In this document: positions 31,804 to 60,253 of the stretch, one piece after another
Position numbering within the stretch: the stretch's first letter is position 1
Layout: the number at the start of each line of letters is the position of its first letter
Assembly: GCF_900113135.1 (NCBI RefSeq)
Contig: NZ_FOOH01000013.1
Span: 1-64,000 of the forward strand
Length of the DNA stretch: 64,000 bases
Source: Salegentibacter agarivorans
GTDB taxonomy: Bacteria > Bacteroidota > Bacteroidia > Flavobacteriales > Flavobacteriaceae
Direction: 5' to 3'
Translations under genes and position numbers: made by a program
Notes under the pieces: generated by a model
Databases searched by the model: none
What the model saw: the letters and a program-made list of their open reading frames with translations, nothing else
What the model was told of the DNA's origin: nothing

Positions 31804-34752
31804 TTATTCTATCGCATCATACAAAACCTGCTGAATATTGGTTCTGGTATTTAATTGGTAAAGCCTTGTGTTTTCCCGTGAAGGCAAAACCCTGTTTGAA
31901 AGAAAAAGATAGAGTAAATCTTCTTCGGGATCTACCCAGGCGTAAATTCCGGTAAATCCGGTGTGTCCAAAACTGGCTTTGCTGGCATCTTTTGCAGTGT
32001 TGCTACTTTCTCCCTTGTATTCTAAATATGGCTTGTCAAAACCTACCCCACGGTGATTATCATTTTCTGGAAATTGTGCCGTACTCCATTCTTTTAAAGT
32101 TTCTTCTTCAATATAGCGCTCTCCGGCATATTCGCCCATGTTCAGGTACATTTGCATCAGTTTTGCCAGGTCGTTGGCATTAGAAAATAGCCCGGCATTA
32201 GCCGAAACTCCACCCATCATAATCGCACCTTCATCGTGTACCATCCCATGAATGGTTTTTTTTCTGAATAAATAATCGTGTTCTGTAGGTACAATTCTAC
32301 TTTTTTCAAAGCGTTCCAGCGGATTATAACCTAGAGTTGTAGCGCCAAGTTTATCGTAAAAATTTTCATTGATATATTTTCTGAAATCTTCTCCACTAAT
32401 TTCTTCAACTATAGAAGGAAGCAGGTAAAAAGTTAAACCCGAATATTTATATTTTGCCTCGTCTTCCAGCTCAGATTTCTTGATGGCTTTAAACATCTTC
32501 TTTTGGTAATTACGATGTAGCCAAAGATCTTCACTCACTTTAATAGGAAACCTGGCAGAAGAATCTTTCTTAAAAGTATACCATTTAAAGCTTCCATTTT
32601 TGCGCAAGGTGTTTTTCCAATAAGGAATCCAGGGTTTAAACCTGGCCTGGTGCGTTAGAATTTGCCGAAAAGGAACGCCCGCTTTATTCGAGTTTTTGAA
32701 GTACGGCAAGTAGTCATCTATCCCGGCCTCTAAATCAAATTTTCCCTCGTCCTGTAATTTCATTAAAGCCGGTAAAGCCGAAGAAATTTTTGTTACCGAA
32801 GCCAGATCGTACAAATCGGTTTTCTTAACTTTTATGGTATCGCTGTATTCGTGGTAACCGTAAGCTTTGTGTAAAACGATTTTCCCATCTTTAGCGACTA
32901 GAATTTGCCCTCCCGGCGTCGCTTTTTTTTTAATAGCTTCCTGCATTAAGGAATCTACACCGCCAAAAAGTTTTTCAGAATTCATCCCTGCATCTTCGGG
33001 CAGGGTATATTTAAATCTTATTTTTCCTTTAACATCCATCCCGTCTCCCGACTTGAATTTCTCACCAATACTCACCGGAAGTCTTCCGTTTGCTCCTACT
33101 CCACCAAAAATAAGTTGGGCTGCGAGGTCTTGTGTGGTTTTGGTATCCTGATAAGTTAAAATTAAACCGGCTGCATTTTCAATTTTATCCAGTTTATTTA
33201 TGGAATATGGATTTTTAAAATAGCTGAAAATTGTAAGTTCTTTTGCGGCAAGTTCTGCAATGAAATCCTGTACAGGTTTCGAAAATTTCATGGTGTTTCT
33301 AGGAAAACGGCTATCGTCGTGAATTCCACCAATTACAAGGTTATATTCTGAAAGTTTTTCTTTGATTTTTTCGATTTCCGAAGCTTTTGCATCAGCTTTT
33401 AACTGAAAGTTTTTTACTTCGGTATATAAATTCAGCGTTTTCTGAAATTCGGTTTGTTTGGAAGCTCCAAAAGAGACTGAAGCTATCTTTAAAGTATCAA
33501 GCTTTCTTAAAGGCAGTATACTTTTTTCGTTTTTCAATACGGTGAGTGAAGCTTCAACCAGTTTTCTGTTAAGAAAGTTAGCTTCCGCTGTATTGATCTC
33601 TTTCAGGATATTTTTAGGACTTTGCGCTTTAAATTCATTCAAACCAACCCATTGTTTTACCGCCAGAATTTTTCTTACCCGTTCATCTAACTGTTTTTGA
33701 GAAATTAATCCTTGCTTAATGGCTTTATTTACTTCCTCAATAGCTTTTGGAACATCTTCTGTAAACTCTAAGAGATCGTTACCCGCTAAAATAGCGTCTT
33801 TATCTACAATCCCGGGTTCGTTTCCCTTGGTTACGCCTTTCATATTCATCGCATCGGTCACGATTAAACCTTCAAAACCTAAACTATCTTTTAAAATTCC
33901 GGTGATGATAGATTTTGATAAGGTAGAAGGAACCCCGGTAGAATCCAGTGCCGGAATATTTAAATGCGCCACCATTACGCCGCCAATCCCGGCGTCTATC
34001 AATTCTTTAAAAGGGTACATTTCTAAGGAATCCAATCTTTCAAAAGGATGATTTATCTGCGGAAGCGCATAATGGGAATCAGTATCGGTATCTCCGTGGC
34101 CGGGAAAATGTTTAGCTGTGGTTAGCAGATTCGCATCCTGCATCCCACGCATATAAGCGATTCCTTTTGCGGAAACATTTTCTTTATTTTCCCCAAAAGA
34201 GCGGTAATTAATCACCGGGTTATTCGGATTGTTATTTACATCTACTACTGGGGCAAAATTAAGATGAAGCCCCGTACGCTTTATTTGGCGGGCCACTTCC
34301 TGCCCTAAATCGTACACTAAACTATCGTCACGAATTGCACCGAGGGCCATTTGATAAGGATAACTAATGGTATTGTCCAGTCGCATTCCAAGTCCCCATT
34401 CGGCGTCAATCGCTCCCAATAATGGAACTTCGGAAGCTAACTGGTAATCGTTCATCAACTTTAATTGAGTTTCAGGATCACCCTGGAAAAATATTAATCC
34501 GCCAATTTTTTGTTCGTTAATCAGTTTTAGAATTTCTTCTTTATGAGCATTATCCCGGTTAGAATAAGCCGCCACCATAATAAGTTGCGCAATTCGCTCT
34601 TTTGGAGTAAGCTCTTGCATTATAGAGTCAACCCATTTGCTGTTGGTATATTGAAGAAATTCCGGAGATTTCTTAACCTTTTCCTGGGCCTGAAGTGTAA
34701 GCCCGAAAAAGGCCATTAAAAAAATGAATAAGCGTGATATTTTATTTCTCAT
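31804..34752 (-). CDS. GH3 beta-N-acetylglucosaminidase fused to serine beta-lactamase-type amidase (NagZ-AmiE-like)
   Basis: A 982-residue secreted two-enzyme protein (signal peptide ending TLQAQ). Residues ~30-580 form a GH3 NagZ-type unit with KHFPGHGDTDTDSHYALP, where D225 and H227 match the Asp-His acid/base dyad, and the nucleophile D300 in VTDAMNM. Residues ~600-975 form a class C beta-lactamase/PBP-like domain with S652-V-T-K655 (SxxK), YSG in YKYSGLTF, and HTG near the C-terminus. In Bacillus subtilis NagZ and the beta-lactamase-fold amidase AmiE are neighbouring genes acting in turn on muropeptides; here both lie in one chain. It is co-transcribed with the NagX-like gene (16 nt). 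The amidase role is inferred; an esterase is the alternative. Confidence 0.88.
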   Translation of the reverse strand: MRNKISRLFIFLMAFFGLTLQAQEKVKKSPEFLQYTNSKWVDSIMQELTPKERIAQLIMVAAYSNRDNAHKEEILKLINEQKIGGLIFFQGDPETQLKLMNDYQLASEVPLLGAIDAEWGLGMRLDNTISYPYQMALGAIRDDSLVYDLGQEVARQIKRTGLHLNFAPVVDVNNNPNNPVINYRSFGENKENVSAKGIAYMRGMQDANLLTTAKHFPGHGDTDTDSHYALPQINHPFERLDSLEMYPFKELIDAGIGGVMVAHLNIPALDSTGVPSTLSKSIITGILKDSLGFEGLIVTDAMNMKGVTKGNEPGIVDKDAILAGNDLLEFTEDVPKAIEEVNKAIKQGLISQKQLDERVRKILAVKQWVGLNEFKAQSPKNILKEINTAEANFLNRKLVEASLTVLKNEKSILPLRKLDTLKIASVSFGASKQTEFQKTLNLYTEVKNFQLKADAKASEIEKIKEKLSEYNLVIGGIHDDSRFPRNTMKFSKPVQDFIAELAAKELTIFSYFKNPYSINKLDKIENAAGLILTYQDTKTTQDLAAQLIFGGVGANGRLPVSIGEKFKSGDGMDVKGKIRFKYTLPEDAGMNSEKLFGGVDSLMQEAIKKKATPGGQILVAKDGKIVLHKAYGYHEYSDTIKVKKTDLYDLASVTKISSALPALMKLQDEGKFDLEAGIDDYLPYFKNSNKAGVPFRQILTHQARFKPWIPYWKNTLRKNGSFKWYTFKKDSSARFPIKVSEDLWLHRNYQKKMFKAIKKSELEDEAKYKYSGLTFYLLPSIVEEISGEDFRKYINENFYDKLGATTLGYNPLERFEKSRIVPTEHDYLFRKKTIHGMVHDEGAIMMGGVSANAGLFSNANDLAKLMQMYLNMGEYAGERYIEEETLKEWSTAQFPENDNHRGVGFDKPYLEYKGESSNTAKDASKASFGHTGFTGIYAWVDPEEDLLYLFLSNRVLPSRENTRLYQLNTRTNIQQVLYDAIE

Positions 34753-34768
34753 TATTCAGCAATTGAAT

Positions 34769-35926
34769 TTATACTTTAATATAGATACGTTTTTTATGTA
34801 ACCAGTAACCCAACAACCACATAAGCAGCATATAAGAAATGGCAAACAGCAGCGAGGCGTTATAATTGTTTAGCCAGCTAAGATATAAGTTTTCATAAAG
34901 CCATGGTTTGAGTGCCTGCCCATTAACATAAATAATATTCATAAGCATTACTACCAGGCCAGACATTACAAAAACAAACAAAGGATTTTTTCCAAAAGCC
35001 TCGAAGAAAGTCGTCCATTTCTTAAAATTGAAAATTTCAATGATCAAAATTAAGGCCGAAAGTATTAAAAGCGTCCACCCCGTACTGTAAATTACGTAAG
35101 AGCTGCTCCAAATAGGTTTATTTATAGGAAACCAAATATCCCAAATTTGCGCTATAATCAATAGCACGACTCCGTAAACACTTAACTTGATTACCGTAGA
35201 AATATTATTTCCTGATCTTTGAATAAAAACGCCAGCCACATAGCCAGCAATTACATTCACAATTGCGGGAAGCGTACTTAATAAACCTTCAGGATCAAAC
35301 GAGAGGCCATAACCTTTATAAAGATTGGCATCGTTAAATATTAATCGGTCAAACTTCAGCGCAGCATTATGCTCTAAAGAAAGCGGATTAGGCTGATCGC
35401 CAAAAAACCACATAACAGCCCAATAGCCAAGTAAAATTAGGCTTCCAAAAATGATAGATTTTTTCAGTTTTAAATAATGAAGAATTAGCGAGCCAAAAAG
35501 ATAGCAAAGAGCAATGCGCTGCAAAACTCCCATAATTCGCATATTCGCCAAATTCTTAAAAACCAGTTCGCCTTCCTGTCTAAATACAAACGGAAATGCG
35601 TTTAAAAATAACCCGATAAGAAAAATAAGTGCCGCCCTTTTAAAGACCTTTCTTAAAAATACGCTTTCAGAAATGCTTTCATATTTACGTAGGCTAAAGC
35701 TCATCGCGTTGCCAATTACAAATAAGAAAGAAGGAAAAACCCAATCGGTTGGGGTAAATCCATCCCAGGGAGCGTGTTTAAACGGCGCATAAATATGTGA
35801 CCAGCTCCCTGGCGTATTTACCAGTATCATTAGCGCTACGGTAAGTCCGCGCAATACATCTAAAGCTAAATAACGCTGGTTTTTTCCGGTTTTTGCTTCC
35901 TTAAATAGTTTATTGACTTCAGTCAT
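34769..35926 (-). CDS. nagX: NagX-like membrane acyltransferase (heparan-glucosaminide acetyltransferase family)
   Basis: A 385-residue inner-membrane protein with about 10-11 TM segments. It opens with RYLALDVLRGLTVALMILVNTPGSW and then HAPWDGFTPTDWVFPSFLFVIGNA, typical of the DUF1624/DUF5009 group related to lysosomal HGSNAT. In gammaproteobacterial chitin/GlcNAc loci such proteins (NagX) accompany GlcNAc permeases. Some relatives may transacetylate amino sugars across the membrane. Here it is first in a two-gene leftward operon with the GH3-amidase fusion and divergent from the ROK regulator, pointing to amino-sugar handling. The molecular role is unproven. Confidence 0.82.
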   Translation of the reverse strand: MTEVNKLFKEAKTGKNQRYLALDVLRGLTVALMILVNTPGSWSHIYAPFKHAPWDGFTPTDWVFPSFLFVIGNAMSFSLRKYESISESVFLRKVFKRAALIFLIGLFLNAFPFVFRQEGELVFKNLANMRIMGVLQRIALCYLFGSLILHYLKLKKSIIFGSLILLGYWAVMWFFGDQPNPLSLEHNAALKFDRLIFNDANLYKGYGLSFDPEGLLSTLPAIVNVIAGYVAGVFIQRSGNNISTVIKLSVYGVVLLIIAQIWDIWFPINKPIWSSSYVIYSTGWTLLILSALILIIEIFNFKKWTTFFEAFGKNPLFVFVMSGLVVMLMNIIYVNGQALKPWLYENLYLSWLNNYNASLLFAISYMLLMWLLGYWLHKKRIYIKV

Positions 35927-36141: not shown

Positions 36142-37428
36142 ATGACAACTCAAACTATGCCAACAGATCTACATGACTTTTTTATAGATGAAAAGAAACT
36201 ATCTAATATTAATAATGTAGAGCGAAAGAAATTCCTTCAGAAATTAAAGATTATAAAACATCTATTTCTGAATGGTGAAACCTCAAACGCCGAAGTTTGC
36301 CAGCGCTTTAATGTAAGCCTACCTACTTCCATGTCTCTGCTCAATCAACTTATTGAGGAAGGCATAGTGATAAAAAAAGGTAGGGGGAAATCTGAAGGTG
36401 GCCGTAAACCAGACCTTTACGGACTTGTAGAGAATTCGTTTTTTGTGGTGAGTATTCATATAGAACGGTTTAGAATTAAGTTGGCAGTAATTGATAATAA
36501 CCATACCATTCTACACGAACAATCCTGGCCCGCAGAGATTTCTACAGATTCTAATATTGTAGATCTCTTATTTGAGTGGACCCAGAAATTATTAAAAGAA
36601 GCTAAAGTGAAACTGGACCAGGTAATGGGTGTTGGTATAAGCATGCCTGGACTGGTTTCGGCTGAAGCGGGCAAAAACTTCACCTATTATCTAAGCGAAC
36701 AGGAGCCCGAATCACTTAAAAATAAATTTGAGAAAAAGTTTAAAAAGCCGGTGGCTATTTTAAACGATGCAAAAAGTGCTTGTTTAGCTGAATTTCGATT
36801 TGGTACAGCCAAAAACAAGAGTAATGTTCTGGTAATTTCTATGGACTGGGGTATTGGCCTGGGAATTATTATGGGCGGCAGGATGCACAGCGGCGAATCG
36901 GGTTTTGCAGGCGAATTTGGACATATCCCAATGACAGAAGATGGGCTGCTTTGCCACTGCGGGAAACGCGGTTGTTTGGAAACAGAAGCATCGGGACTTG
37001 CCCTTGTTAGAAAAACCAAAGAAGGTTTAAAAGCGGGACAAACTTCGGTATTAAATAAACTTAAGAAGGAAGAGTTAGAAAAACTGGAGCCAGAAACTAT
37101 TATTAATGCCGCAAACCGTGGCGACCAGTTTGCGATAAATGTACTTTCTGAAATAGGAATAAACCTTGGAAAAGGTATCGCAATCCTCATTCAAATCTTT
37201 AATCCCGAATTAGTGATTTTAGAAGGAAAAATAGCCGAAGCTAAACAGTTTATCACCACTCCAATTCAACAATCAATGAACACTTACTGTATGATGCAGC
37301 TTAAGGAACGCACCAAAATAGAACTTTCTACCCTGGGTGCAAATTCCAGTTTATATGGCGGTACCATAGCAGTAATGGACGATATTTTTAAAGACCAGGT
37401 TAGCCTGGTGAAATCCCAAATTAGTTAA
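36142..37428 (+). CDS. ROK-family transcriptional regulator (NagC-like)
   Basis: A 428-residue regulator with an N-terminal winged helix (~25-95, GETSNAEVCQRFNVSLPTSMSLLNQL) and a C-terminal ROK domain. The zinc-binding block CHCGKRGCLE and ESGFAGEFGHIPM are the ROK signature. The ATP phosphate loop of ROK kinases (DxGxT) is replaced by SIHIERFRIKL, although an Asp remains in NDAKSACLAE at the catalytic position. It is therefore more likely a sugar-phosphate-sensing repressor than a kinase. It is first gene of a rightward operon with nagB (6-nt gap) and divergent from nagX, so it probably controls both. Confidence 0.88.
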   Translation: MTTQTMPTDLHDFFIDEKKLSNINNVERKKFLQKLKIIKHLFLNGETSNAEVCQRFNVSLPTSMSLLNQLIEEGIVIKKGRGKSEGGRKPDLYGLVENSFFVVSIHIERFRIKLAVIDNNHTILHEQSWPAEISTDSNIVDLLFEWTQKLLKEAKVKLDQVMGVGISMPGLVSAEAGKNFTYYLSEQEPESLKNKFEKKFKKPVAILNDAKSACLAEFRFGTAKNKSNVLVISMDWGIGLGIIMGGRMHSGESGFAGEFGHIPMTEDGLLCHCGKRGCLETEASGLALVRKTKEGLKAGQTSVLNKLKKEELEKLEPETIINAANRGDQFAINVLSEIGINLGKGIAILIQIFNPELVILEGKIAEAKQFITTPIQQSMNTYCMMQLKERTKIELSTLGANSSLYGGTIAVMDDIFKDQVSLVKSQIS

Positions 37429-37434
37429 AAAATT

Positions 37435-39357
37435 ATGGCCAGATTAAATCTTTTAGAAGAAACACGTTTTGAAAAACTACCGGTAAAAGTTTATGAAGAT
37501 GAACATATTGCCTCAAAAAAGGTAGCTAAACGAATTGCAGATCTTATTAGACGTAAACAAGACAAGCATGAAAATGCCGTGTTGGGCCTGGCTACAGGCG
37601 CCACCCCGGTAGAAGTTTACGAAGAGCTAATTAGAATGCATAAAGAAGAAAAACTTAGCTTTAAAAACGTGATTACTTTTAACTTGGACGAATATTACCC
37701 CATGCAGCCTGATGCTAAACAGAGCTACGTGAAGTTTATGGACGAAAACCTTTTTAACCATATAGATATAAAAAGGGAGAATATTCATATTCCAGATGGA
37801 ACCCTGGCCAAAGAAGATATTACCGATTATTGTCTCGCCTATGAAAATCAAATAGGTGCTGTTGGCGGTTTAGACCTTCAATTATTGGGAATTGGTAGAA
37901 CCGGTCACATTGGTTTTAACGAACCGGGTTCAGCACCAAATTCAGGAACGCGTTTAGTAACATTAGACGATCTTACCCGAAGGGATGCTTCGCGAGATTT
38001 TGGCGGAAAAGAAAATGTACCTACCAAAGCCATTACTATGGGAATTGGTACTATTTTTAAAGCAAAAGAGATTATTTTAATGGCCTGGAGCAAGAAAAAA
38101 GCTCCAATTATTAAAAAAGCGGTTGAAGGAGAAATGTCTGGAAATGTCCCAGCAACTTACCTTCAGCTTTCAGATAATGTAGAATTTATTTTAGATGAAG
38201 ATGCGGCTTCAGAGTTAACAAGATTTAATACGCCGTGGTTAGTAAAAGACTGTTCCTGGAATAAAGCGCTTATTAAAAAAGCGGTAATCTGGCTTTCTTC
38301 CGAAGTAAAAAAACCAATCCTAAAACTTACTGACGAAGATTACAATAATAACGGAATGGCGCAACTTGCCACCGAGCAAGGCCCCGCCTACGATATTAAT
38401 ATAGATGTATTTAACCAGTTACAGCACAGTATAACCGGTTGGCCAGGAGGAAAACCAAATGCTGATGATACCCAGCGCCCGGAACGTAAAAGCCCTGCAA
38501 AGAAACGTTCTATTATTTTCTCCCCACACCCAGATGATGATGTGATTTCTATGGGCGGAACTTTTATTAGGCTGGTAGACCAGGGCCACGATGTTCACGT
38601 AGCTTACCAAACTTCAGGGAACACCGCTGTTTGGGATACCGATGTGTTACGTTACGTAGAGTTTGCCATAGATTTTAAGAAAAGTACCGGGGAAGATACC
38701 GAAAAGCTGGAGGCTACTTACGAGAAAATGCGTGACTTTATCGATAAGAAAGAGCCTAACGAGATAGATTTAGATGAAATAAGAGATGTAAAAGCTTTTA
38801 TTAGAAAATCTGAAGCGATTGCAGGTGCCCGTTATGCCGGCTTAAAAGATAAAAATATTCATTTTATGGCCCTGCCTTTCTATGAAACCGGGAAAAAAGT
38901 AAAAAATCCAGTAACCAATAAGGATGTTGAACTTACCATGGAATTATTGAAAGAGGTAAAACCTCATCAAATATTTGCCGCCGGCGATTTTGCCGATCCT
39001 CACGGGACTCATATTGTATGTTTTAGGATTATCCTGGAAGCTATGAAAAGGCTTAGAAAAACTGAATCCTGGACCAAAGACTGCTGGTTATGGATGTATC
39101 GTGGCGCCTGGCAGGAATTTGAAGTGCACGAAATTGAAATGGCCGTACCGCTTTCTCCCAAAGAAGTACAACGCAAAAGAGACGCTATTTTCCAACACCA
39201 GTCGCAAAAAGACAGGCCGGTATTCCCTGGCGATGATGAACGGGAATTCTGGGTACGAGCAGAAGAGAGAAATCGCGAAACAGCCGAAAGTTATGATAAA
39301 CTGGGATTAGCGAATTACGAAGCAATGGAAGCCTTTGTAAAATGGAAATTCGAATAG
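37435..39357 (+). CDS. nagB: Glucosamine-6-phosphate deaminase fused to PIG-L-type deacetylase
   Basis: A 640-residue fusion. Residues ~15-290 are NagB: LGLATGATPVEVYEELIRMH, ITFNLDEYYPM with the catalytic Asp, and GIGRTGHIGFNEPGS with the catalytic His. They convert GlcN-6-P to fructose-6-P and ammonia. Residues ~355-610 are a PIG-L/LmbE domain with the zinc motif SPHPDDDVISMGG and ADPHGTHI. LmbE proteins deacetylate N-acetylglucosaminyl compounds. No separate nagA is present in the window, so this domain may remove the acetyl group just before deamination (inference). The fusion is widespread in Bacteroidota. Neighbours are the ROK regulator and two amidases. Confidence 0.92.
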   Translation: MARLNLLEETRFEKLPVKVYEDEHIASKKVAKRIADLIRRKQDKHENAVLGLATGATPVEVYEELIRMHKEEKLSFKNVITFNLDEYYPMQPDAKQSYVKFMDENLFNHIDIKRENIHIPDGTLAKEDITDYCLAYENQIGAVGGLDLQLLGIGRTGHIGFNEPGSAPNSGTRLVTLDDLTRRDASRDFGGKENVPTKAITMGIGTIFKAKEIILMAWSKKKAPIIKKAVEGEMSGNVPATYLQLSDNVEFILDEDAASELTRFNTPWLVKDCSWNKALIKKAVIWLSSEVKKPILKLTDEDYNNNGMAQLATEQGPAYDINIDVFNQLQHSITGWPGGKPNADDTQRPERKSPAKKRSIIFSPHPDDDVISMGGTFIRLVDQGHDVHVAYQTSGNTAVWDTDVLRYVEFAIDFKKSTGEDTEKLEATYEKMRDFIDKKEPNEIDLDEIRDVKAFIRKSEAIAGARYAGLKDKNIHFMALPFYETGKKVKNPVTNKDVELTMELLKEVKPHQIFAAGDFADPHGTHIVCFRIILEAMKRLRKTESWTKDCWLWMYRGAWQEFEVHEIEMAVPLSPKEVQRKRDAIFQHQSQKDRPVFPGDDEREFWVRAEERNRETAESYDKLGLANYEAMEAFVKWKFE

Positions 39358-40297: not shown

Positions 40298-40348
40298 GCA
40301 CCTATTTTTCAGAAATAAAACAATTTAAAAATTAAATAAGGCAATTTT

Positions 40349-40936
40349 ATGAGTCATATTGGTAAGTTTATTTTGCTTCTTTTGTTTTTCAGTAGCTTTT
40401 CACTTTTTGCACAGCAAATTTCTGAAAATGAATTAGCTATTATTCAAAGAAAAGATTGGAATGCCCAAAAACCGGTTATGAAAATGAAGTCGCATAAACC
40501 GGAATTTATTACCATTCACCATACAGGGATGCCTCAAAAACCGGAACTTTCTATAGAAAAGAAACTGCAGGCATTGCAAAATTTCTCCCAAAAAGATTCC
40601 CCAATGGCCGATGGTAGTATAAAAAAAGCCTGGGCAGATGTTCCTTATCATTTTTATATTGCAACCAATGGTAAAATTGCTGAAGGAAGGGAGATAAAAT
40701 TCCAGGGCGATTCTAATACTGACTACAACCTTGAAGGGCACGTACTAATTGTAGTAGAAGGGGATTTTAATAAAGAAAAAGTGCTACCTCAACAATGGGA
40801 AAGTTTAAAAGAACTTATCTTTTATATTTCCAGCGAATACGAAATTTCCCATAACACAATTAGCGGCCATAAAGACCAGGCCGAGACCAGTTGTCCCGGA
40901 AACAACCTATATCAAAAATTGTCTCAATTAAGATAA
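40349..40936 (+). CDS. PGRP/Amidase_2-type N-acetylmuramoyl-L-alanine amidase, secreted
   Basis: A second amidase, 195 residues, with a Sec signal ending SLFAQ. The T7-lysozyme/PGRP fold is marked by WNAQKP, ITIHHTGMP (zinc His), VPYHFYIATNGKIAEGR, and GHKDQAETSCPGN, with the His and Cys that complete an H-H-C zinc site. That differs from the Asp-type site of its neighbour, so the two may prefer different muropeptides. It lies 51 nt after the AmiD-like gene. Confidence 0.9.
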   Translation: MSHIGKFILLLLFFSSFSLFAQQISENELAIIQRKDWNAQKPVMKMKSHKPEFITIHHTGMPQKPELSIEKKLQALQNFSQKDSPMADGSIKKAWADVPYHFYIATNGKIAEGREIKFQGDSNTDYNLEGHVLIVVEGDFNKEKVLPQQWESLKELIFYISSEYEISHNTISGHKDQAETSCPGNNLYQKLSQLR

Positions 40937-40955
40937 CCTCCTAAAATTTATTGTT

Positions 40956-44750: not shown

Positions 44751-44760
44751 ATAGCAAAAA

Positions 44761-44793
44761 AAACCTCACAGGTTTCGGAAACCTGTGAGGTTT
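44761..44793. terminator. Strong hairpin terminator between convergent genes
   Basis: A 15-bp perfect stem (AAACCTCACAGGTTT and its complement) closes a CGG loop. An A run on the left gives a T tract for the leftward NlpC/P60 gene, and TTTGAGTAAAT follows on the right, so it can serve both directions. Confidence 0.85.
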
Positions 44794-52106: not shown

Positions 52107-55100
52107 TTAAAGCGTTACCTGAACTCCAATAGAAAATGATCTTCTAAAAGGATATACACGGCCAAAAGTTGATGTATCATTTAAACCTGCTGTAGTATAA
52201 TCTACTTCTGGATCTACAGGTATCTGAGCTCCTGTAAATTCAAACAGGTTTTCACCACTTACATAAAGTCTAAATCTTTCTACCTCAAATTTTTCGGTTA
52301 GAGAAGTTGGAATGGTATACCCAAGGGTAATGTTCTTCATTCTCAAATAAGACATATCCAACAAATATTTAGATTGTGGTAAAAAGTTCATAGCGTTATT
52401 AGACTGTCCCTGGTCATTAGGTCTTGGATAATATGCATTTGGATTTTCTGGTGTCCAATAGTCTAACTGATGCTCATACCAGGCTTCTCCATAACGATAT
52501 CCCGGAATGAAAACTGGTCCATTAGCCCAGAAATCACGTTTTCCAACACCTTGCATAAACATATTAAAATCAAAACCTTTCCAGTTTGCTCCTAATTGTA
52601 ATCCATATTGGTATCGAGGTGTAGAATTACCAATTCTTTTCATATCCCCGCTATCACCTACTGTTCTAGAACCAAAATCTACAACGCCATCACCATTTAA
52701 ATCCTTGTATTTTATGTCACCGGGTCCATACTCAAACCAACCGTTTGTTTCAAAAATTTCCTGAGAAGGAATTCCATCAACTAAATTTCCATCTGAATCA
52801 AAATCGTCTTCGGTAAAAAATCTATCGGTTTCGTAACCCCAAATTTCTCCAAGCTCTTTACCTTCATAATAAGAATTAATTCCTTCGGTAGTATTGGCAA
52901 ATTTGGTTACTTTTTCAGTGAAATCGGTTAAATTTCCTTTTGCATTAATGCTAAGTCCGTTATCAAAAGTATGATTAAAATCAACTTCCAATTCCCAACC
53001 GCGGGTTTGGATTTCACCAAAATTCCTTATTGGAGCCGAAGTTCCAAATGAACTTGGTAAAGTTACACCGGCACTATGCATATCACTTATGGTACGCTCA
53101 TACCAGCTAAAACTTGCTCCTAATTTATCTTTAAAGAATCTGGCATCAAAACCAAGGTCTAAAGTAGTAACAGTTTCCCAAGTTAAATCTGCCGGTAATG
53201 CACCCGGTGTACCGGTAGCTAACTGGTTTTCACCATCTATTAACCATCCAGAATTATACGAAGACATTGTTCTGTAAATATTAGAAATTAATGCATTTTG
53301 ATTACCTACAGAACCATAAGAACCTCTTATTTTAAAGAACGATAAAGTAGGCTTTAAAGAATCCATAAAGTCTTCCTGGGTTACAATCCAACCGGCAGAC
53401 ATTGATGGGAAAAAAGCCCATTTTTCATCTGCAGAAAGCCTGGAAGAACCATCATATCTACCATTAAGATTTAAAAGATATTTATCTTTATATGAATAGT
53501 TTATACGAGCAAAAGCACCTAAAGTGGTCCAGTGTTCTCTGTCTCCACCTACAAACTGATCACCTGTAGCTAAGTCTAACTCTCCCTGTTCAGGATTTAA
53601 AAGGTCTCTTCTTTGAGAAGATTGAGCCCATAATTCAAATTCTTCAGCATCACCACCCACTGTAACTTCAAAATCGTGATCATCAGCTATATTAAGATCA
53701 TATGTGGCAAAAGCTTTTGCCGTATTCCTTCTACTCCAGGAAGAATTATAAACTACCCTGTCATAAGCAGGACTGGTGTAAGGTTCATAAACCAAATTTG
53801 GACCAGTAGCCCAGAAGTTATAAGCCGAAACAGAGCCTCCAACCTGGTGTTCATGTCTATCTACACCATCATGAGTATAATCAAAATTAATTGCCAGATT
53901 TTCTATTGGATTAATAGTAGTTCCTAAATTAATTCTGGTTAGTGCCCTGTTATTCTCGTTCATATTAGCTTGGGTAACTTCATTAATATGGCTTCTAAAA
54001 GGATTACCTTCATATGTTCCATATGGATAGTATGCCGGCCATCTGGTAGTATAATACCAGGCATCATAAGTTGCAGAGCCAAAAGCAAAAGGCTCTGTAG
54101 TTCTGGTATTTGTGTAAAGGACCTTAGCCCTTACATCCATCCAGTCAGTAATAGAAGTGTTAACACTTAAGTTAAGGTTATATCTTTCAAATTCATCAGG
54201 GTTTGTTTTATAAACACCTCCCTGTTCTAAATAACCCAAACCTACGTAGTAATTTGTTTTTTCACTACCTCCGGAAACTGACACATCATGTTTTTGTTGT
54301 GGAGCCCATTCTTTAACAAACATTTCCTCCGGGTTCCATGGTCGATAGAAAAATAATCTACCATCCCTAATTTCAAAATCACGTCCTTCTACCATTTCTG
54401 GTCCAAGATCCTGACCTCCATAATTAGTTTCCCAATCCCTCATTCTTTCAATAGCGGTATCATCTAAAAACATATTAACCAGTCCAAATGCATCCAAGGA
54501 AGGGATTCTTCTTCTCACCGCAGCAAAAGCCATTTCAGCTCCCTCAGCCGCAGGTGCTACCGTGGGTGTATTAGTTGGTGTAGACCAGGAAATGTTATTT
54601 GAGTAATTTACAGTTGGTGCCTGGCTTCTTCTACCATTTTTAGTAGTAATCAAAATAACCCCCCAGGCAGCTCGCGCTCCATAAATAGAAGTGGATGCCG
54701 CATCCTTTAAGACAGAAATATCTTCTATATCCTGTGGGTTAATAGATTGAAGGCTCGAAACCTCTACGTTATCTACTAAAATTAGAGGTTGAGCTCCACC
54801 ACCACCGGGACTTAAGGTTCCTACATTACCACGTAGTCTAATGGTTGGGTTCTGACCTATTTGACCCGTTGGAGCAGTAATTGTAACCCCGGGGCTTGCA
54901 CCCTGCAATCCTCGTGCAACATCTGTAATTGGTCTTGAATCTAAAACCTCTGCATCTACAGTAGAGATTGCGCTTGTTACATTACTTCGTTTTTGACTAC
55001 CATAACCAACTACTACAACCTCATCGAGGCCTTCGGTATCGGTTTGCATAGTAATGCTAAAGTTAGTTTGATCTTCTACGGTAATTTTTTGTTCTTGAAA

Positions 55101-55340
55101 TCCCAAAGACGAAAAAACCAGTACTATACTGTTATCATCTGGAATACTCAAAGAAAATTGTCCGTCAAAATTTGTAACAGTTCCTGTTGAAGTGTTCTCT
55201 ACAAATACATTTACCCCTGGAAGAGGTATCCCGTCTGTATCAAAAACTTCACCAGTAACTTCTCTCTCCTGTGCCCAAGCCTGAATTGAAAATAAGCAGA
55301 CTAACACTAAAATAGATTTACGAAAACGTTTTCCCATCAT
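52107..55340 (-). CDS. SusC/RagA-family TonB-dependent transporter (murein/amino-sugar locus)
   Basis: A 1077-residue outer-membrane transporter. It has a signal ending QAWAQ, a carboxypeptidase-regulatory domain (~25-110, GVNVFVENTSTGTVTNFDG), the SusC junction DEVVVVGYGSQKRSNVTSA, a plug (ISVLKDAASTSIYGARAAWG) and a barrel ending FSIGVQVTL. It would import glycans delivered by its SusD. It is first gene of the leftward operon running to the GHL10 glycosidase, symporter, epimerase and endopeptidase. Its promoter carries repeats likely bound by the divergent DeoR-family regulator. Confidence 0.95.
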   Translation of the reverse strand: MMGKRFRKSILVLVCLFSIQAWAQEREVTGEVFDTDGIPLPGVNVFVENTSTGTVTNFDGQFSLSIPDDNSIVLVFSSLGFQEQKITVEDQTNFSITMQTDTEGLDEVVVVGYGSQKRSNVTSAISTVDAEVLDSRPITDVARGLQGASPGVTITAPTGQIGQNPTIRLRGNVGTLSPGGGGAQPLILVDNVEVSSLQSINPQDIEDISVLKDAASTSIYGARAAWGVILITTKNGRRSQAPTVNYSNNISWSTPTNTPTVAPAAEGAEMAFAAVRRRIPSLDAFGLVNMFLDDTAIERMRDWETNYGGQDLGPEMVEGRDFEIRDGRLFFYRPWNPEEMFVKEWAPQQKHDVSVSGGSEKTNYYVGLGYLEQGGVYKTNPDEFERYNLNLSVNTSITDWMDVRAKVLYTNTRTTEPFAFGSATYDAWYYTTRWPAYYPYGTYEGNPFRSHINEVTQANMNENNRALTRINLGTTINPIENLAINFDYTHDGVDRHEHQVGGSVSAYNFWATGPNLVYEPYTSPAYDRVVYNSSWSRRNTAKAFATYDLNIADDHDFEVTVGGDAEEFELWAQSSQRRDLLNPEQGELDLATGDQFVGGDREHWTTLGAFARINYSYKDKYLLNLNGRYDGSSRLSADEKWAFFPSMSAGWIVTQEDFMDSLKPTLSFFKIRGSYGSVGNQNALISNIYRTMSSYNSGWLIDGENQLATGTPGALPADLTWETVTTLDLGFDARFFKDKLGASFSWYERTISDMHSAGVTLPSSFGTSAPIRNFGEIQTRGWELEVDFNHTFDNGLSINAKGNLTDFTEKVTKFANTTEGINSYYEGKELGEIWGYETDRFFTEDDFDSDGNLVDGIPSQEIFETNGWFEYGPGDIKYKDLNGDGVVDFGSRTVGDSGDMKRIGNSTPRYQYGLQLGANWKGFDFNMFMQGVGKRDFWANGPVFIPGYRYGEAWYEHQLDYWTPENPNAYYPRPNDQGQSNNAMNFLPQSKYLLDMSYLRMKNITLGYTIPTSLTEKFEVERFRLYVSGENLFEFTGAQIPVDPEVDYTTAGLNDTSTFGRVYPFRRSFSIGVQVTL

Positions 55341-55365
55341 AATACATTAACAATTAATTATGAAA

Positions 55366-55396
55366 CAAACATATCATATAAATTTTTTAATAGCAA
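55366..55396 (-). promoter_or_regulatory. susC (second pair) promoter
   Basis: The minus strand has TTG (55396-55394), a 20-bp spacer and TATGTTTG (55373-55366), a good match to the Bacteroidota promoter, 25 nt before the ATG. The -33 part overlaps the first TTGC repeat, consistent with repression by the neighbouring regulator. Confidence 0.55.
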
Positions 55397-55471
55397 CTAA
55401 AAATTGCAATAATCTACTTATTTTGCCGTTTTTTTTGCTCTAGTATCCTAATTTTTGCTATTTTTAATTGC
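55393..55471. promoter_or_regulatory. Cluster of TTGC-N8/9-TTGC direct repeats (candidate DeoR operators)
   Basis: Three copies are seen. One is TTGC-AATTTTTAG-TTGC on the minus strand (55393-55409), one TTGC-TATTTTTAA-TTGC on the plus strand (55455-55471), and one looser copy TTGC-N8-TTGC lies at 55423-55438. Direct-repeat operators are usual for DeoR-family proteins. The first overlaps the susC -33 element. Confidence 0.5.
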
Positions 55472-55553
55472 ACACACGGAATTTTAATAAAAAAATAGTT
55501 TTATTTTAAAAACTCTTAATTCAGAAATTTTAACATATTAATTTGATTCAAAT

Positions 55554-55561
55554 TAATTTTG
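55554..55561 (+). promoter_or_regulatory. -7 promoter element of the DeoR-family gene
   Basis: TAATTTTG fits TAnnTTTG, 45 nt before the ATG. A -33 box is not clear. Confidence 0.4.
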
Positions 55562-55606
55562 TTATATACTGTTCTTTAATCCAAAAACCAGTTTCAAAGA
55601 TCTAAT

Positions 55607-56362
55607 ATGAAAAAAACAGAGCGCCATCGAATTATTCTTGACGAAGTACATTTACATAACAGGGTTCTACTAAGTGATCTAACCAGAACTCTTAATGTAT
55701 CTATGGATACTGTACGAAGGGACCTTATGGAACTGGATAAATTAAAACAGCTTAAAAAAGTTCACGGAGGTGCGGTTTCAAATGGATTTAATATTCATTC
55801 CGATAATACTCGGGAGGTGTACGAATATGAAAATAAATCTATTATTGCAAAGAAAGGAGTCGAACTTCTAAACCATCGCGATGTGGTGCTTATTAGTGGG
55901 GGGTCTACTAATTTAGAACTTGCAAAATTGCTTCCTAAAAAGATGAATTTAACTTTCTTTACTCCAAGTCTCCCTATGGCTGTAGAACTGCTTAATAACA
56001 CCTCCAAAAATGACGAAGTACATCTTATTGGAGGAAAATTATCCCGCGGCTCGCAACTTGCGGCAGGAGGAAGTGCAATTAACCTTTTATCGGAAATCAC
56101 AGTCGATATCTGTTTTTTAGGCACAGGTTATATGGATATAAAAAAAGGTGTTACCGAACTGGATTGGGAGGTCGCCCAAATGAAAAAGGCAATGGTTAAA
56201 TCTTCCAAAAAATTAGTTTCACTTACCATTTCTAAAAAGCTAAACACCTATAACCGTTTTAAAGTTTGTGATACGATTGCTGTAGATACACTAATTACAG
56301 AGTTAGAACCTAACTCACCAGAACTACAAAAATATAGAAGTATAGGCCTGGACTTATTATAG
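55607..56362 (+). CDS. DeoR/GlpR-family transcriptional regulator
   Basis: A 251-residue repressor. It has an N-terminal helix-turn-helix (~5-58, with LLSDLTRTLNVSMDTVRRDL and KKVHGGAV) and a C-terminal DeoRC sugar-phosphate sensor (~75-230, SGGSTNLELAKLLP, GGKLSRGSQLAAGGSA, FLGTGYMDIKKGVTE). It diverges from susC and converges with murQ. DeoR proteins are usually released from DNA by phosphorylated sugars; MurNAc-6-P, GlcNAc-6-P or GlcN-6-P are reasonable effectors here (inference). Its likely targets are the TTGC repeats in the shared intergenic region. Confidence 0.9.
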   Translation: MKKTERHRIILDEVHLHNRVLLSDLTRTLNVSMDTVRRDLMELDKLKQLKKVHGGAVSNGFNIHSDNTREVYEYENKSIIAKKGVELLNHRDVVLISGGSTNLELAKLLPKKMNLTFFTPSLPMAVELLNNTSKNDEVHLIGGKLSRGSQLAAGGSAINLLSEITVDICFLGTGYMDIKKGVTELDWEVAQMKKAMVKSSKKLVSLTISKKLNTYNRFKVCDTIAVDTLITELEPNSPELQKYRSIGLDLL

Positions 56363-56439: not shown

Positions 56440-57255
56440 TTAATTTTCATATTTTGCCAGTACATTTCGTACACTTTTGTATGTTTGAAGCAATCGTGCG
56501 GCTTCAGCTTCATCTACATTTAGTTCCTCCATGATCATCCTAGTTCCGCGACCTACCAATTTCTTATTGGAAAGTTGCATATCTACCATTTTATTGCCTT
56601 TTACCCTACCTAGTTTTATCATTACACTGGTTGAGATCATATTCAATACCAGCTTTTGCGCAGTACCTGCTTTCATTCTTGTACTGCCGGTTACAAACTC
56701 AGGGCCAGTAACCACCTCTATAGGGAATTCGCTTGCTTTGGCCAAGGGACTTCCGGAACTACAGGTTATACACCCGGTAACAATTCCTTTAGATCGCGCA
56801 TCCTTAATTCCGCCAATAACGTATGGAGTAGTACCTGATGCAGCGATCCCTACCAACACATCTTTTTCTGAAACATCAAACTTCTGAAGATCTTTCCAGG
56901 CCTGATTGGTATCATCTTCAGCATTTTCTACAGCATTTCTTAACGCAATATCACCCCCAGCAATTAAGCCAATAACTAATTCATCTGAAACACCAAAAGT
57001 AGGAGGACATTCGGAAGCATCTAAAACACCCAGTCTACCACTTGTTCCAGCTCCAATATAAAGTAATCTCCCACCGGCCTCCATTTTAGGTACTATAGCA
57101 TCAACTAATCTTTGAATTGCAGGAAGTTCTTTTTCAACACTTTCTGGAACGGTTTTATCTTCCTTGTTTATATTGTGAAGCAGAGTTGAAGTACTCATTT
57201 TCTCTAAATCATTATATTTAGAAGTTTTTTCAGTTTCGGGATTATTATTCTCCAT
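56440..57255 (-). CDS. murQ: N-acetylmuramic acid 6-phosphate etherase
   Basis: A 271-residue SIS-domain lyase that removes the D-lactyl ether from MurNAc-6-P to give GlcNAc-6-P. Diagnostic blocks are GAGTSGRLGVLDASECPP with the catalytic Glu, GLIAGGDIALRNAVENAEDD, VGIAASGTTPYVIGG and STRMKAGTAQKLVLNMIST. It is slightly shorter than E. coli MurQ (298) but has all core motifs. It is the last gene of the transporter-GH20-murQ run. This is the strongest single marker that the locus handles murein rather than chitin alone. A MurNAc kinase to supply its substrate is not visible in the window. Confidence 0.95.
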   Translation of the reverse strand: MENNNPETEKTSKYNDLEKMSTSTLLHNINKEDKTVPESVEKELPAIQRLVDAIVPKMEAGGRLLYIGAGTSGRLGVLDASECPPTFGVSDELVIGLIAGGDIALRNAVENAEDDTNQAWKDLQKFDVSEKDVLVGIAASGTTPYVIGGIKDARSKGIVTGCITCSSGSPLAKASEFPIEVVTGPEFVTGSTRMKAGTAQKLVLNMISTSVMIKLGRVKGNKMVDMQLSNKKLVGRGTRMIMEELNVDEAEAARLLQTYKSVRNVLAKYEN

Positions 57256-57330: not shown

Positions 57331-58905
57331 TTAAAATTTAGATTTAGGCATAAATTCTGAAAAAACACCTTTATTTCTATCGCTGTTCCATTCTACCTCT
57401 GGAGTTCGAAAGTAATGCACATCCATAAGGTCCAGTCGCAATCCATGTTCACTTAATCTTTTTATAAAGTTTTTATAATCTTTATTTTCTTCTTCACTCC
57501 AACCCACTTCTGCCATCGCAATTGTTCGCGGCCAAAACCTATCATCGGCAGCTTCATTAGAAAGTACCATCTCGGTCCAAACCGGAGCCTCTACCCCTAT
57601 TGTATTTGGGTTTTTCACCTTAAAGGTATAAGCATCTTTTAAAGAAACTCCATCTTCCTTGCACCAGTTATTGGTCATTTCCTGTCCCGGCACGTTGGCG
57701 TGATCATAATAAAAACTTGAACAAATAGATTCTATTATAGGCGTATTCACTACACTATTGGTTTTCCCATTCCAACGCTGACTAATCAATGTACTATCTA
57801 CCTGTGCCTGGGTTACTTCTTCCCATCCAATGGTTGTTTTTCCTAAACCTCGAACAATAGAATCTGCTTTTATCACAAATTCTTTATAGCGTTCATCTTC
57901 AATTTCATCTCCTCCAATATGCAAATAATCTCCCGTAGTAATTTCGGCCATTTCGCTTAAAACCGTTGCAACAAAATCGTAGATCTCCGGTTTATCCAGG
58001 CATAATTTGCTCCAGCCCACTGTGTACTCGTGGAAAAGTTGTGGAGGAGTTGCCAACCTGGGTTCAATATTTGCAAATTCGTCGCAATTCAATTCAGGAT
58101 ACGCCATTAATGCAGAATAAATATGGCCGGGCATATCAATTTCAGGAACTATTACAATATTTCTCGCTGCGGCATATTCCTGGATTTCTTTATATTCTTC
58201 CTGGGTTAAATACCCGGAACGACCGCCTTTTACAGCGCCTTTACTTCCCAGTTCAGTTAGTTTGGGTTTTTGTTTTATTTCTATTCGCCAACCCTGGTCA
58301 TCGGTTAGGTGCAAATGAAGTCGGTTTAATTTATAAACAGCCATTCTGTCTAGATGCTTTTTAATATAATCTGGGCCAAAAAAACTACGGGCAATATCCA
58401 GCATGGAACCACGCCACTCGTATTTTGGACTATCTGAAATACTACCCTGCGGAAGTTTAATTTCTTCTGAAACTTTTTTATTTTCAATTTCAGCCGGGAA
58501 CATTTGTCGTATGGTTTGAATTCCATAGAAAAGTCCTGCTTCCGAAGCTGCTTCTAAACTAACCACACTAGAAGATATATTCAAATTATAACCTTCTTTC
58601 CCCAGGGTTTCTTCAAGATTTGGATCAAGATTAAGGCTAAAACCGTTACAGTTTTCGCCTTTCATAGTATAACTTTGCGTATAAGTATTTTTCAACAATC
58701 GCTGCAGCCAGGCAGCCGATGCTTCTGCACCGGAATTAAAACAAACCACTGTCCTTTCCTGGAGTGTAAAGAAACCTTCTTTCCACTCAATTTCTGCCGG
58801 CTGCGGAATGATTGCCGGTTTTTCAGTTTGGGATTCTTGTGCGGATAAACCCCACTGAAATAACACTAAAAAAACTAAACTAACACTTAACTTTAAACTT
58901 TTCAT
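57331..58905 (-). CDS. GH20 beta-N-acetylhexosaminidase
   Basis: A 524-residue secreted enzyme (signal ending GLSAQ). It has a GH20b-type N-terminal domain (~30-150) and a TIM barrel (~150-500) with LHLHLTDDQGWRIEI, VIVPEIDMPGH and the catalytic pair D333-E334 in HIGGDEIED. It uses substrate-assisted retention to release terminal GlcNAc or GalNAc. In this locus it could remove GlcNAc from chitooligosaccharides or from GlcNAc-MurNAc fragments. It lies between the sugar transporter (82 nt upstream) and murQ (75 nt downstream). Murein activity is inferred from context; chitobiose is the standard alternative. Confidence 0.92.
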   Translation of the reverse strand: MKSLKLSVSLVFLVLFQWGLSAQESQTEKPAIIPQPAEIEWKEGFFTLQERTVVCFNSGAEASAAWLQRLLKNTYTQSYTMKGENCNGFSLNLDPNLEETLGKEGYNLNISSSVVSLEAASEAGLFYGIQTIRQMFPAEIENKKVSEEIKLPQGSISDSPKYEWRGSMLDIARSFFGPDYIKKHLDRMAVYKLNRLHLHLTDDQGWRIEIKQKPKLTELGSKGAVKGGRSGYLTQEEYKEIQEYAAARNIVIVPEIDMPGHIYSALMAYPELNCDEFANIEPRLATPPQLFHEYTVGWSKLCLDKPEIYDFVATVLSEMAEITTGDYLHIGGDEIEDERYKEFVIKADSIVRGLGKTTIGWEEVTQAQVDSTLISQRWNGKTNSVVNTPIIESICSSFYYDHANVPGQEMTNNWCKEDGVSLKDAYTFKVKNPNTIGVEAPVWTEMVLSNEAADDRFWPRTIAMAEVGWSEEENKDYKNFIKRLSEHGLRLDLMDVHYFRTPEVEWNSDRNKGVFSEFMPKSKF

Positions 58906-58987
58906 TATAACAATATTTTACTCGATAATCGAAATTTATAAACTCCAGGACCAACCCAGAAATCAGAGATTATTTCTCCGAGGTAAT

Positions 58988-60253
58988 TTACTTTATTTTA
59001 TGCCCTTTTGCAGCAAAAAACCAGATATAAAGGTAACTTGGGATAACTATCCAGTAAGCCGATTGCGGATCAAAAGTATCTGCCAGGTAACCATAAATTA
59101 GCGGTAAAATAGCTCCACCGGCAAGGGCCATAATTAAAAATGAAGATCCCATTTTAGTAAATCTTCCCAGGCCGTGAAGTGCTAAAGGCCAGATAGCCGG
59201 AAATACCAAAGCATTTGCCAAACCTAAAAGGGAAATACAAAGCACTGAAATATACCCATCAGTAAAAATTGCAGCTAACCCGAGTATAATTCCAAGTATC
59301 CCCGAAATTTGCAAGGCTTTCTGCTGACTTATATATTTTGGAATAGTTACCGTACCAATTAAGTAACCTACAATCATTGCAATTAAAGTATAAGTGGTAA
59401 AATATTTAGCCACATCTGTTGCAATATCATGCCCATCACGTGCATAACTTATTACAGTATCTCCTGCAATTACCTCTACTCCCACATACAGGAACATCGC
59501 CAGAGTTCCTAATAATAAATTTGGAAACTGAAGCACACTGGTCTTGCTTTTATTAGCAGCAGCAAGGGTATCATCTTCTCCATCGGTTTCAATTTCAGGC
59601 AAAGCTGAATAATAAATAAGCACCGATAATCCTACCAAAATTACAGCCATAATTATATATGGTGTAATCACGAGTGAAGCGAGTTCATCTAATTCAGCAG
59701 CTTTTGCGGCGGCACCCATTCCTTCTAGCCTTGCTTCTACCGCATCCATATTTTTCAGCAAAATTGCACCGAAAATAATTGGAGCTAAGGCACCTGCAAC
59801 TTTGTTACAAATTCCCATAATACTAATTCGCTTCGCTGCACTTTCAATTGGCCCCAGAATAGTGATATACGGGTTGGCAGCAGATTGTAGTAACGCCAAT
59901 CCTGTTCCCTGAACAAATAATCCAAAAAGGAACATTGCGTAGGTTCTGGACATTGCAGCTGGAATAAAAATTAAAGCACCTATGGCCATAACTATAAGTC
60001 CCAGGGACATTCCGTTCTTAAAACCTATTTTCTTTAAAACCCAGGCTGAGGGGATTGCCATTACAAAGTAAGAAATGTAAGATGCAAAAGCTACGAGGTA
60101 AGATTCAAAATTGTTTAACTGGCTGGCTGTTTTTAAAAAAGGAATAAGCACAGAGTTTAGCCAGGTAACAAAGCCAAAGATGAAAAATAACACCCCAATT
60201 ATAACAATAGATCTACTGGTGTTGTTCTGGTTGGTTGCGGTTTTAGCTGCCAT
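58988..60253 (-). CDS. MFS sugar transporter of the FucP/NagP group
   Basis: A 421-residue inner-membrane protein with 12 TM segments. The N-terminus VIIGVLFFIFGFVTWLNSVLIPFLK, then FVQGTGLALLQSAANPYITILGP and the C-terminal half with FPAIWPLALHGLGRFTKMGSS match the FHS (FucP/GluP/NagP) group of proton-linked sugar importers. In Bacteroidota and Shewanella, NagP members bring in GlcNAc. Here it is first in the run with GH20 and murQ, so GlcNAc or MurNAc is the likely solute. Entry by this route gives an unphosphorylated sugar, so a kinase is needed before MurQ. Confidence 0.9.
   Translation of the reverse strand: MAAKTATNQNNTSRSIVIIGVLFFIFGFVTWLNSVLIPFLKTASQLNNFESYLVAFASYISYFVMAIPSAWVLKKIGFKNGMSLGLIVMAIGALIFIPAAMSRTYAMFLFGLFVQGTGLALLQSAANPYITILGPIESAAKRISIMGICNKVAGALAPIIFGAILLKNMDAVEARLEGMGAAAKAAELDELASLVITPYIIMAVILVGLSVLIYYSALPEIETDGEDDTLAAANKSKTSVLQFPNLLLGTLAMFLYVGVEVIAGDTVISYARDGHDIATDVAKYFTTYTLIAMIVGYLIGTVTIPKYISQQKALQISGILGIILGLAAIFTDGYISVLCISLLGLANALVFPAIWPLALHGLGRFTKMGSSFLIMALAGGAILPLIYGYLADTFDPQSAYWIVIPSYLYIWFFAAKGHKIK

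Follow-up and report, generated by a model that had tools for sequence, protein, structure and literature searches.

Could a member of the Bacteroidota feed on the walls of other bacteria through a SusC/SusD (SusCD) system? This question is raised by a locus of Salegentibacter agarivorans (Flavobacteriaceae), which spans positions 31804-60253 of the first 64,000 nucleotides of contig NZ_FOOH01000013.1 (this whole stretch is called the window below). A large amount of bacterial carbon and nitrogen resides in peptidoglycan, and a preliminary description had proposed that the locus scavenges this polymer with a SusCD importer of its own. Every gene named there is present as an open reading frame (ORF) at the place, and with the domain, attributed to it (Pfam, NCBIfam), although a 1264-aa fusion protein encoded at 40956-44750 was overlooked. 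Domains were called with Pfam, and finer gene names were graded by the curated cut-offs of NCBIfam: MurQ, NagB, and SusC score above these cut-offs, while the epimerase, NagX, NagP, AmpD, PRK05337, and SSS names fall below them. Judged from gene content and linkage, this is quite probably a peptidoglycan (bacterial wall) utilization locus, in which a core for amino sugars and peptides has been upgraded by an exchangeable SusCD importer. The pair would import peptidoglycan fragments, and Gram-positive walls may be among the foods.

The evidence that carries this reading is the linkage between one type of SusCD and peptidoglycan genes. The pair in the window consists of SusD (50375-52087, minus strand; PF07980, with a lipobox-like Cys at its N-terminus), here called peptidoglycan-locus type I, and SusC with a type I barrel (52107-55340, minus strand; TIGR04056, 861.8 bits against a cut-off of 368). 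With glycosidases of the glycoside hydrolase (GH) families GH3, GH20, and GHL10 and a linked, divergent DeoR gene, the adjacent SusC and SusD have the make-up of a SusCD-type polysaccharide utilization locus (PUL). When SusD alone was used as the query, so that the search presupposed no locus, it was found in 10/397 family genomes at 1e-90 and in 2/395 genomes of an overlapping order-level draw at 1e-100. Leaving out the window and a fragment on a short contig in G614 (G labels denote the genomes of relatives, G000 being the strain's own, and L labels denote extracted gene loci), eight places were readable, six with 68-77% identity and two with 38-40%. Each of the eight has one or more of GHL10, MurQ, NamZ, the epimerase, and NlpC; at the places in G030 and G619, GHL10 is the one marker present. 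By contrast, the SusD of the rhamnose PUL (5894-7423), a separate cluster in the window, was sought as a control in 299 family genomes and led to 10 places in 9 genomes besides the own one (39-47% identity), none of which has any of the five markers, though weak matches to GH20 and NagB are seen in G544, and to NagB in G509. The difference (8/8 versus 0/10) has a one-sided probability of 2.3e-5 by exact count, a figure that ignores relatedness and in which the control relatives are mostly the more distant ones. On this count, the SusCD type of the window is tied to peptidoglycan genes.

Linkage is also seen when loci are collected by GHL10. Among the best 80 of 584 confirmed candidate loci with titled records, many of which are short (the gene caller gave a GHL10-labelled frame in 79 of the 80, and none in L080), SusC is present in 9 of the 20 that contain at least one of MurQ, NamZ, the epimerase, and NlpC, versus 5 of the 60 that contain none (Fisher p 0.0007; relatedness ignored). 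One of those five, L055, contains a type I DeoR-SusCD-GHL10 set together with NagB and a BadF gene. A GHL10 search of 120 family genomes matched 19, of which 8 (the own genome included) are close, with at least 61% identity, and 11 reach only 34-39%. In the seven other genomes with a close GHL10, the cluster includes SusCD in six (G031, G111, G024, G100, G030, and G013; not G007), and MurQ lies within the extracted stretch in five (G031, G111, G024, G007, and G100). In the three distant-GHL10 genomes examined out of 11 (G119, G025, and G080), the GHL10 place has no locus neighborhood; in G119, type I SusCD, NamZ, and an epimerase gene occur at a place other than that of its GHL10.

Much of the block running from LepA to an outer-membrane protein gene is found again in other genera, and several clusters contain further peptidoglycan genes. 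The order in G024 is SusC-SusD-SSS-DUF6259-MurQ-GH3-GH18-NamZ-D-LDH-like-NagB-GHL10, and genes for proteins like D-lactate dehydrogenase (D-LDH) are present in the clusters of G024, G391, G137, and G512. In G030 and G619 a BadF-type (MurK-family) gene (L025:917-1780; PF01869 below cut-off for G030) stands beside DeoR-SusC-SusD-GHL10. BLAST matches reveal GHL10-amidase fusions in L048, L050, L062, L101, and L109 (with SusC nearby in L048, L050, and L101) and GHL10-NamZ fusions in L096 and L100.

Other features of the relatives' loci are recorded here in their own right. G013 (L026/L027) has a second GHL10 copy at a distance of about 5 kb from the first. Two relatives (L015:2018-3829 and L016:15654-17468) encode a GH9 enzyme, possibly for N-deacetylated glucosamine, in the interval from SSS to the epimerase, and the G100 locus has an inserted gamma-glutamyltranspeptidase and TonB receptor (L023:4905-9537). 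In 15 loci of Chryseobacterium, Kaistella, and their kin (within L070-L106), a GHL10 of about 50% identity occurs without the locus, and a gene 30-32% identical to LepA lies upstream in 15 of the best 80 titled loci.

The importer itself varies from genome to genome. In Salegentibacter salinarum (L034), the nearest titled relative found (also Flavobacteriaceae; GHL10 91% identical, other shared locus genes 84-98%), the core is kept, but MurQ ends at 9945 and GHL10 starts at 10001, with 55 bp between them; in the window the same interval measures 6.1 kb and holds SusD, SusC, and DeoR. L034 also lacks the short amidase and the fusion gene (40297 to 44861 in the window), with a 42-bp gap instead. 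In G486, from the same genus, the flanks, DeoR (90%), and the fusion gene are kept together with a SusC/SusD of another type. Relative to the SusC of the window, that of G486 is 92% identical over residues 1-26, 53% over 27-113, and 22-23% over the barrel from residue 236, versus 46%, 61%, and 69-74% over those segments for G628, which has the same type as the window; this pattern places a likely exchange point either close to where the SusC signal peptide ends or within the N-terminal domain. Another genome of the genus, G031, has a third SusCD pair and no DeoR there. A FastTree phylogeny of 49 SusC sequences places those from peptidoglycan loci in two deep groups, apart from the control SusC, with mixed support at the deepest nodes. 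On this comparison of gene order and sequence, SusCD forms an accessory cassette that can be exchanged, added to a core for peptidoglycan catabolism that is also found without it. The earlier view of SusCD as the locus's own importer therefore holds in that the type is tied to peptidoglycan genes, but not in that the pair is accessory and exchangeable, with cores that do without it. The SusD has its nearest solved relative by sequence in 7kv4 (E 2e-12), which is uninformative on the ligand, and an AlphaFold2 model from seven sequences has a mean pLDDT of 52. A DUF4397 gene directly follows one subtype of type II SusD (L014:18038-18799, L017:5827-6687, and L026:17795-18586).

What, then, would the core do? 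A pathway can be proposed in which the substrates, the order of steps, the locations, and the regulation are all deduced from the genes. Removal of the peptides would fall to an NlpC/P60 lipoprotein and exported amidases. The former (44861-46126, minus strand; SH3-NlpC/P60, PF00877 and PF08239, with a lipoprotein-like signal) is closest among solved proteins to 3pvq/4r0k (E 6e-86) and 3npf, then to 3h41 (E 3e-33), which is presumably YkfC, and has the DCSG and HVG motifs with the catalytic Cys and His that are expected of a YkfC-type endopeptidase. The amidases are an AmpDh2/AmiD-like Amidase_2 (39362-40297, plus strand; PF01510, lipoprotein-like signal by eye, AmpDh2 structure 4bj4 at E 2.5e-28) and a short Amidase_2 (40349-40936, plus strand; PF01510), whose counterpart is an amidase-NamZ fusion in two relatives, G031 (Pfam) and G749 (BLAST). 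The AmpD model of NCBIfam scores 98 bits in the locus, below its cut-off of 143. SusD/SusC, adjoining and probably controlled by DeoR, would import glycan fragments, and the DigH-type GHL10 glycosidase (48695-50293, minus strand; PF02638, lipoprotein-like signal) would cleave the peptide-free glycan. DigH is taken to be a GHL10 protein, and a GHL10 profile built from nine sequences had a sole match among solved structures, 5oq2 (E 2.3e-87), which is Cwp19, presumably a lytic transglycosylase of C. difficile.

Completion of the digestion to N-acetylglucosamine (GlcNAc), N-acetylmuramic acid (MurNAc), and peptides could be carried out by three enzymes. One is the GH20 beta-N-acetylhexosaminidase (57331-58905, minus strand; PF00728, HIGGDE motif, signal peptide by eye). 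Another is the 982-aa, NagZ-AmiE-like fusion of a GH3 N-acetylglucosaminidase with a serine beta-lactamase-like domain (31804-34752, minus strand; PF00933 and PF00144), the latter domain being reminiscent of AmiE. Its GH3 part has the motif KHFPGHGDTDTDSH / KHFPGHGD and is closest to the solved 6k5j, followed by YbbD/NagZ (3bmx/4gyj); the PRK05337 model (beta-N-acetylhexosaminidase) gives 144 bits in the locus (cut-off 207). The third, NamZ, is encoded elsewhere in the genome. Products would cross the inner membrane through the FHS/NagP-like carrier of the MFS type (58988-60253, minus strand; PF07690, TIGR01272 over cut-off, NF046060 at 404 bits, below 625) and the SSS-family symporter (47231-48688, minus strand; PF00474, TIGR00813 at 155 bits, below 184). 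Once a MurK-family kinase, also encoded elsewhere, had made MurNAc-6-phosphate, the etherase MurQ (56440-57255, minus strand; TIGR00274 at 318.7 bits, cut-off 302; 4lzj, E 1e-74) would convert it to its usual products, GlcNAc-6-phosphate and D-lactate. NagB, a glucosamine-6-phosphate deaminase fused to a PIG-L domain (37435-39357, plus strand; PF01182 and PF02585, NF002557 at 1078 bits), would then feed glycolysis. The enolase-superfamily, dipeptide epimerase-like enzyme (46202-47218, minus strand; PF13378/PF02746) would convert L-Ala-D-Glu for peptide breakdown; it is closest to 3iji (E 2.4e-60), then to entries named as dipeptide epimerases, including 1jpd (E 4e-33). The block also encodes a NagX-like transmembrane acetyltransferase (34769-35926, minus strand; PF07786, NF046061 at 161 bits, below 480) and a NagC-like ROK-family regulator with a winged helix-turn-helix (36142-37428, plus strand; PF00480 and PF13412).

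The missing parts have candidates elsewhere in the own genome. A MurNAc kinase, as in scavenging of the Tannerella forsythia type, is recognized by homology to the BadF type at G000:C20:258797, outside the locus: its solved matches include 8ow9, a 'putative novel MurNAc kinase' (E 3e-47), and PF01869 scores 29.6 bits, below its cut-off of 31.5. NamZ (G000:C27:42696, PF07075) likewise lies outside the locus, while in relatives it is found inside; a D-lactate-dehydrogenase-like protein (C32:220456) is 61% identical to the one in the G024 cluster. AmpG (TIGR00901) had no match in the own genome, with matches in 5 of 14 controls, 2 of them over the cut-off. The lack of an AmpG match favors digestion to single sugars and short peptides outside the inner membrane. 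The kinase gene (L133:1501-2361) adjoins a gene like that for glyceraldehyde-3-phosphate dehydrogenase.

The overlooked protein (40956-44750, plus strand) is a fusion of an NAGPA phosphodiester glycosidase domain, Golvesin_C, and a calcineurin-like phosphoesterase (PF09992, PF25275, and PF00149), with a signal peptide by eye; its first domain is matched by solved NAGPA proteins. Lysosomal NAGPA takes GlcNAc off GlcNAc-1-P-6-mannose, and wall teichoic acid has GlcNAc-1-P-6-MurNAc as its linkage unit. Because of this likeness, NAGPA together with a phosphatase could free C6 of MurNAc, and the fusion may act before the other enzymes by releasing wall polymers; cleavage of GlcNAc-1-P-6-MurNAc is thus a hypothesis drawn from the domain match. 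Versions of the fusion lie inside the loci of G486, G730, and G749, a copy in L040 runs off the extracted stretch with Golvesin, phosphoesterase, and tail visible, and near the equivalent place in G111, G628, and G749 there is a phosphoesterase-beta-propeller protein (by Pfam for G111 only). Fusions of calcineurin-like phosphoesterases to NAGPA have been noted in relation to ShfP, for which (lipo)teichoic acid has been considered a probable substrate (PMC11488536). The two domains are joined as in the window protein, but the available text describes no peptidoglycan catabolic cluster around those fusions. As a more far-reaching and tentative proposal, these loci could form a family of Bacteroidota peptidoglycan PULs in which DeoR and the SusC signal peptide stay while the barrel and SusD swap between two deep types matching wall chemistries, and in some members of which the NAGPA/phosphatase fusion strips wall teichoic acid at GlcNAc-1-P-6-MurNAc, so that Gram-positive walls become food.

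How such a cassette might be regulated is suggested by the DeoR-family gene (55607-56362, plus strand; PF00455 and PF08220), which diverges from susC across an intergenic region with GCA/TGC repeats (55341-55606), a candidate DeoR operator. DeoR-SusC gaps were sought in 14 sets and extracted from 13 (the window and 12 loci; G137 yielded none), and DeoR is divergent in all 13. Together, these gaps contain 33 TGC/GCA words at 10-bp spacing (a palindromic TGCA being scored twice) versus 0.16 on average over 300 mononucleotide shuffles; the gaps of L055 and G119 have none of the listed repeat patterns. The 10-bp pattern, searched for in 19 sequences (the entire window plus 18 other loci), had no match in the DeoR-SusC gap of the window. 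Since matches outside the DeoR-SusC gaps lie within genes, save for those in two gaps of G119 (between SusC and NamZ and between SusC and SusD), no wider regulon is claimed. The repeats may represent a putative DeoR operator that outlived the exchange of the importer.

Several observations weigh against a peptidoglycan utilization locus as described. By itself, GHL10 does not identify the locus: of 71 order-level matches, 66 belong to a single other family (f5), which is probably the one that includes Chryseobacterium and Kaistella; titled loci from that family have GHL10 without the locus. As most matches lack the locus, GHL10 was dropped as a marker of it. When two or more of the four core genes are required, SusC is present in 4/10 versus 10/70 of the best 80 of 584 loci, which is not significant (p 0.068; relatedness ignored). 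The epimerase subfamily scores all lie below cut-off, the best being DgcA, an N-acetyl-D-Glu racemase (219 versus 400), and the L-Ala-D/L-Glu epimerase model NF011708 gives 139.7 bits (cut-off 343). The window's own repeats (55392-55411 and 55453-55472) are spaced by 13 bp rather than 10. Full-length relatives of the NAGPA fusion occur in 3/299 family genomes, and in G013 it sits on a different contig from the locus; the fusion was accordingly dropped as a strict locus member. Finally, the core occurs free of SusCD in L034, Salinimicrobium catena (L036, the same as G007), Gillisia hiemivivida (L041), and Christiangramia portivictoriae (L047). Thus, SusCD is not needed for the job of the core, which may be self-recycling: the block would recover the cell's own shed peptidoglycan, SusCD would recapture leaked muropeptides, and external walls would be no real food. 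Export or lipoprotein-like signals on the enzymes, seen by eye, are compatible with such work in the periplasm, and the DigH of E. coli, which degrades denuded glycans, acts on the cell's own wall (PMC12288456, as far as its available text goes), while the window GHL10 sits inside a catabolic cluster. However, SusCD pairs of two deep clades have been placed in this locus, and the clusters of relatives contain MurQ-NagB and D-LDH-like genes, whose catabolic nature suggests carbon use, so that pure self-recycling appears unlikely.

The exchange of importers could also mean that the slot is a hot spot of outer-membrane receptor turnover, for example in escape from phage, with the SusCD type saying little about the substrate. 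The differences in barrel and SusD among genomes of the same genus, with DeoR and the SusC signal peptide retained in G486, would fit. Random turnover would not be expected to leave both SusCD types with peptidoglycan genes at other places as well, in other families according to record titles (L057, L064, L066, L067, G024, and G391), and this explanation is considered improbable. A PUL for chitin, GlcNAc, or host glycans, with the peptidoglycan genes as mere neighbors and a SusCD that binds chitooligosaccharides, seems very improbable. GH20, the NagX-like and NagP-like proteins, NagB, and ROK are typical of GlcNAc use, a GH18 is present in the cluster of one relative (G024) and one in the own genome, and RmNag3 of Rhodothermus marinus, a GH3-beta-lactamase enzyme, is active on acetyl-chitooligosaccharides (PMC6987092, available part). 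Yet Pfam finds no GH18 or GH19 chitinase among the locus genes; the own GH18 lies outside the locus, with no SusC or SusD within the 19.9 kb around it, and the lack of a match in a GH19 search is uninformative because no control matched. The preliminary argument that chitin alone would not need MurQ, amidases, or the epimerase is strengthened: these genes, together with NlpC and GHL10, co-occur across genera, and relatives add NamZ, the D-LDH-like protein, the neighbor of the MurNAc-kinase family, and the GHL10-amidase fusions. The enzyme set is thus better suited to peptidoglycan than to chitin or host glycans, as far as function can be predicted from these families.

How does a peptidoglycan utilization locus of this kind compare with known systems? 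The nearest are the scavenging operon of T. forsythia and the rescue pathway of Bacillus subtilis; what appears to be new is a PUL with a modular importer in which both the components and their linkage indicate peptidoglycan. Muropeptide rescue in B. subtilis involves namZ, nagZ, amiE, and murQRP in a Gram-positive cell with no outer membrane, no SusCD, and uptake by a phosphotransferase system. NamZ, NagZ, AmiE, and MurQ are held in common with the own genome, and YbbD/NagZ is among the nearest solved proteins for the window GH3. The ybbC gene of T. forsythia is presumably namZ, the counterpart of the NamZ in the own genome. The T. forsythia operon (Tanf_08345-Tanf_08385), which has ampG, ybbC, murT, murK, and murQ, serves the use of external MurNAc or muropeptides (PMC5388701, PMC7670621, and PMC10465942). 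MurQ and a MurK-family kinase are shared with the own genome; however, T. forsythia uses AmpG and MurT, whereas the own genome, in which AmpG found no match, has a linked SusCD, and the available portions of those papers mention no SusCD, GHL10, epimerase, or NagZ-AmiE fusion in the operon. As in canonical SusCD PULs, SusC, SusD, glycosidases, and a regulator form one cluster, but the locus differs in having a peptidase and an epimerase and in its inferred target. RmNag3 is a fusion like that of the window, with a suggested role in peptidoglycan turnover, but no SusCD is given for its neighborhood in the figure legend (PMC6987092).

Full-text literature searches, in which most subscription papers were outside coverage, found no published peptidoglycan PUL and no paper joining peptidoglycan, SusC, SusD, and MurQ. 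In the accessible part of one large PUL survey, the classic peptidoglycan hydrolase families GH23, GH24, GH25, and GH73 are underrepresented in PULs, yet present in several predicted PULs (PMC6499787); the loci described here use GHL10, NamZ, the NagZ-AmiE fusion, and Amidase_2, which such a classic list of hydrolase families misses. If the reading is correct, Bacteroidota own SusCD systems dedicated to bacteria that are dead or taken as prey, and a preference for wall type could be inferred from genomes by way of the two SusCD types.

Two neighboring features complete the window. At 29271-31676, adjoining the GH3 fusion, is an OMP_b-brl_3 outer-membrane protein gene, and this synteny is kept in several relatives. 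The second PUL, which is of the rhamnose type (376-24272), contains two GH78-type rhamnosidases, SusD/SusC, and GH106, together with catabolic genes for an aldolase-dehydrogenase fusion, an isomerase-like protein, an FGGY kinase, and an FMN-dependent dehydrogenase.

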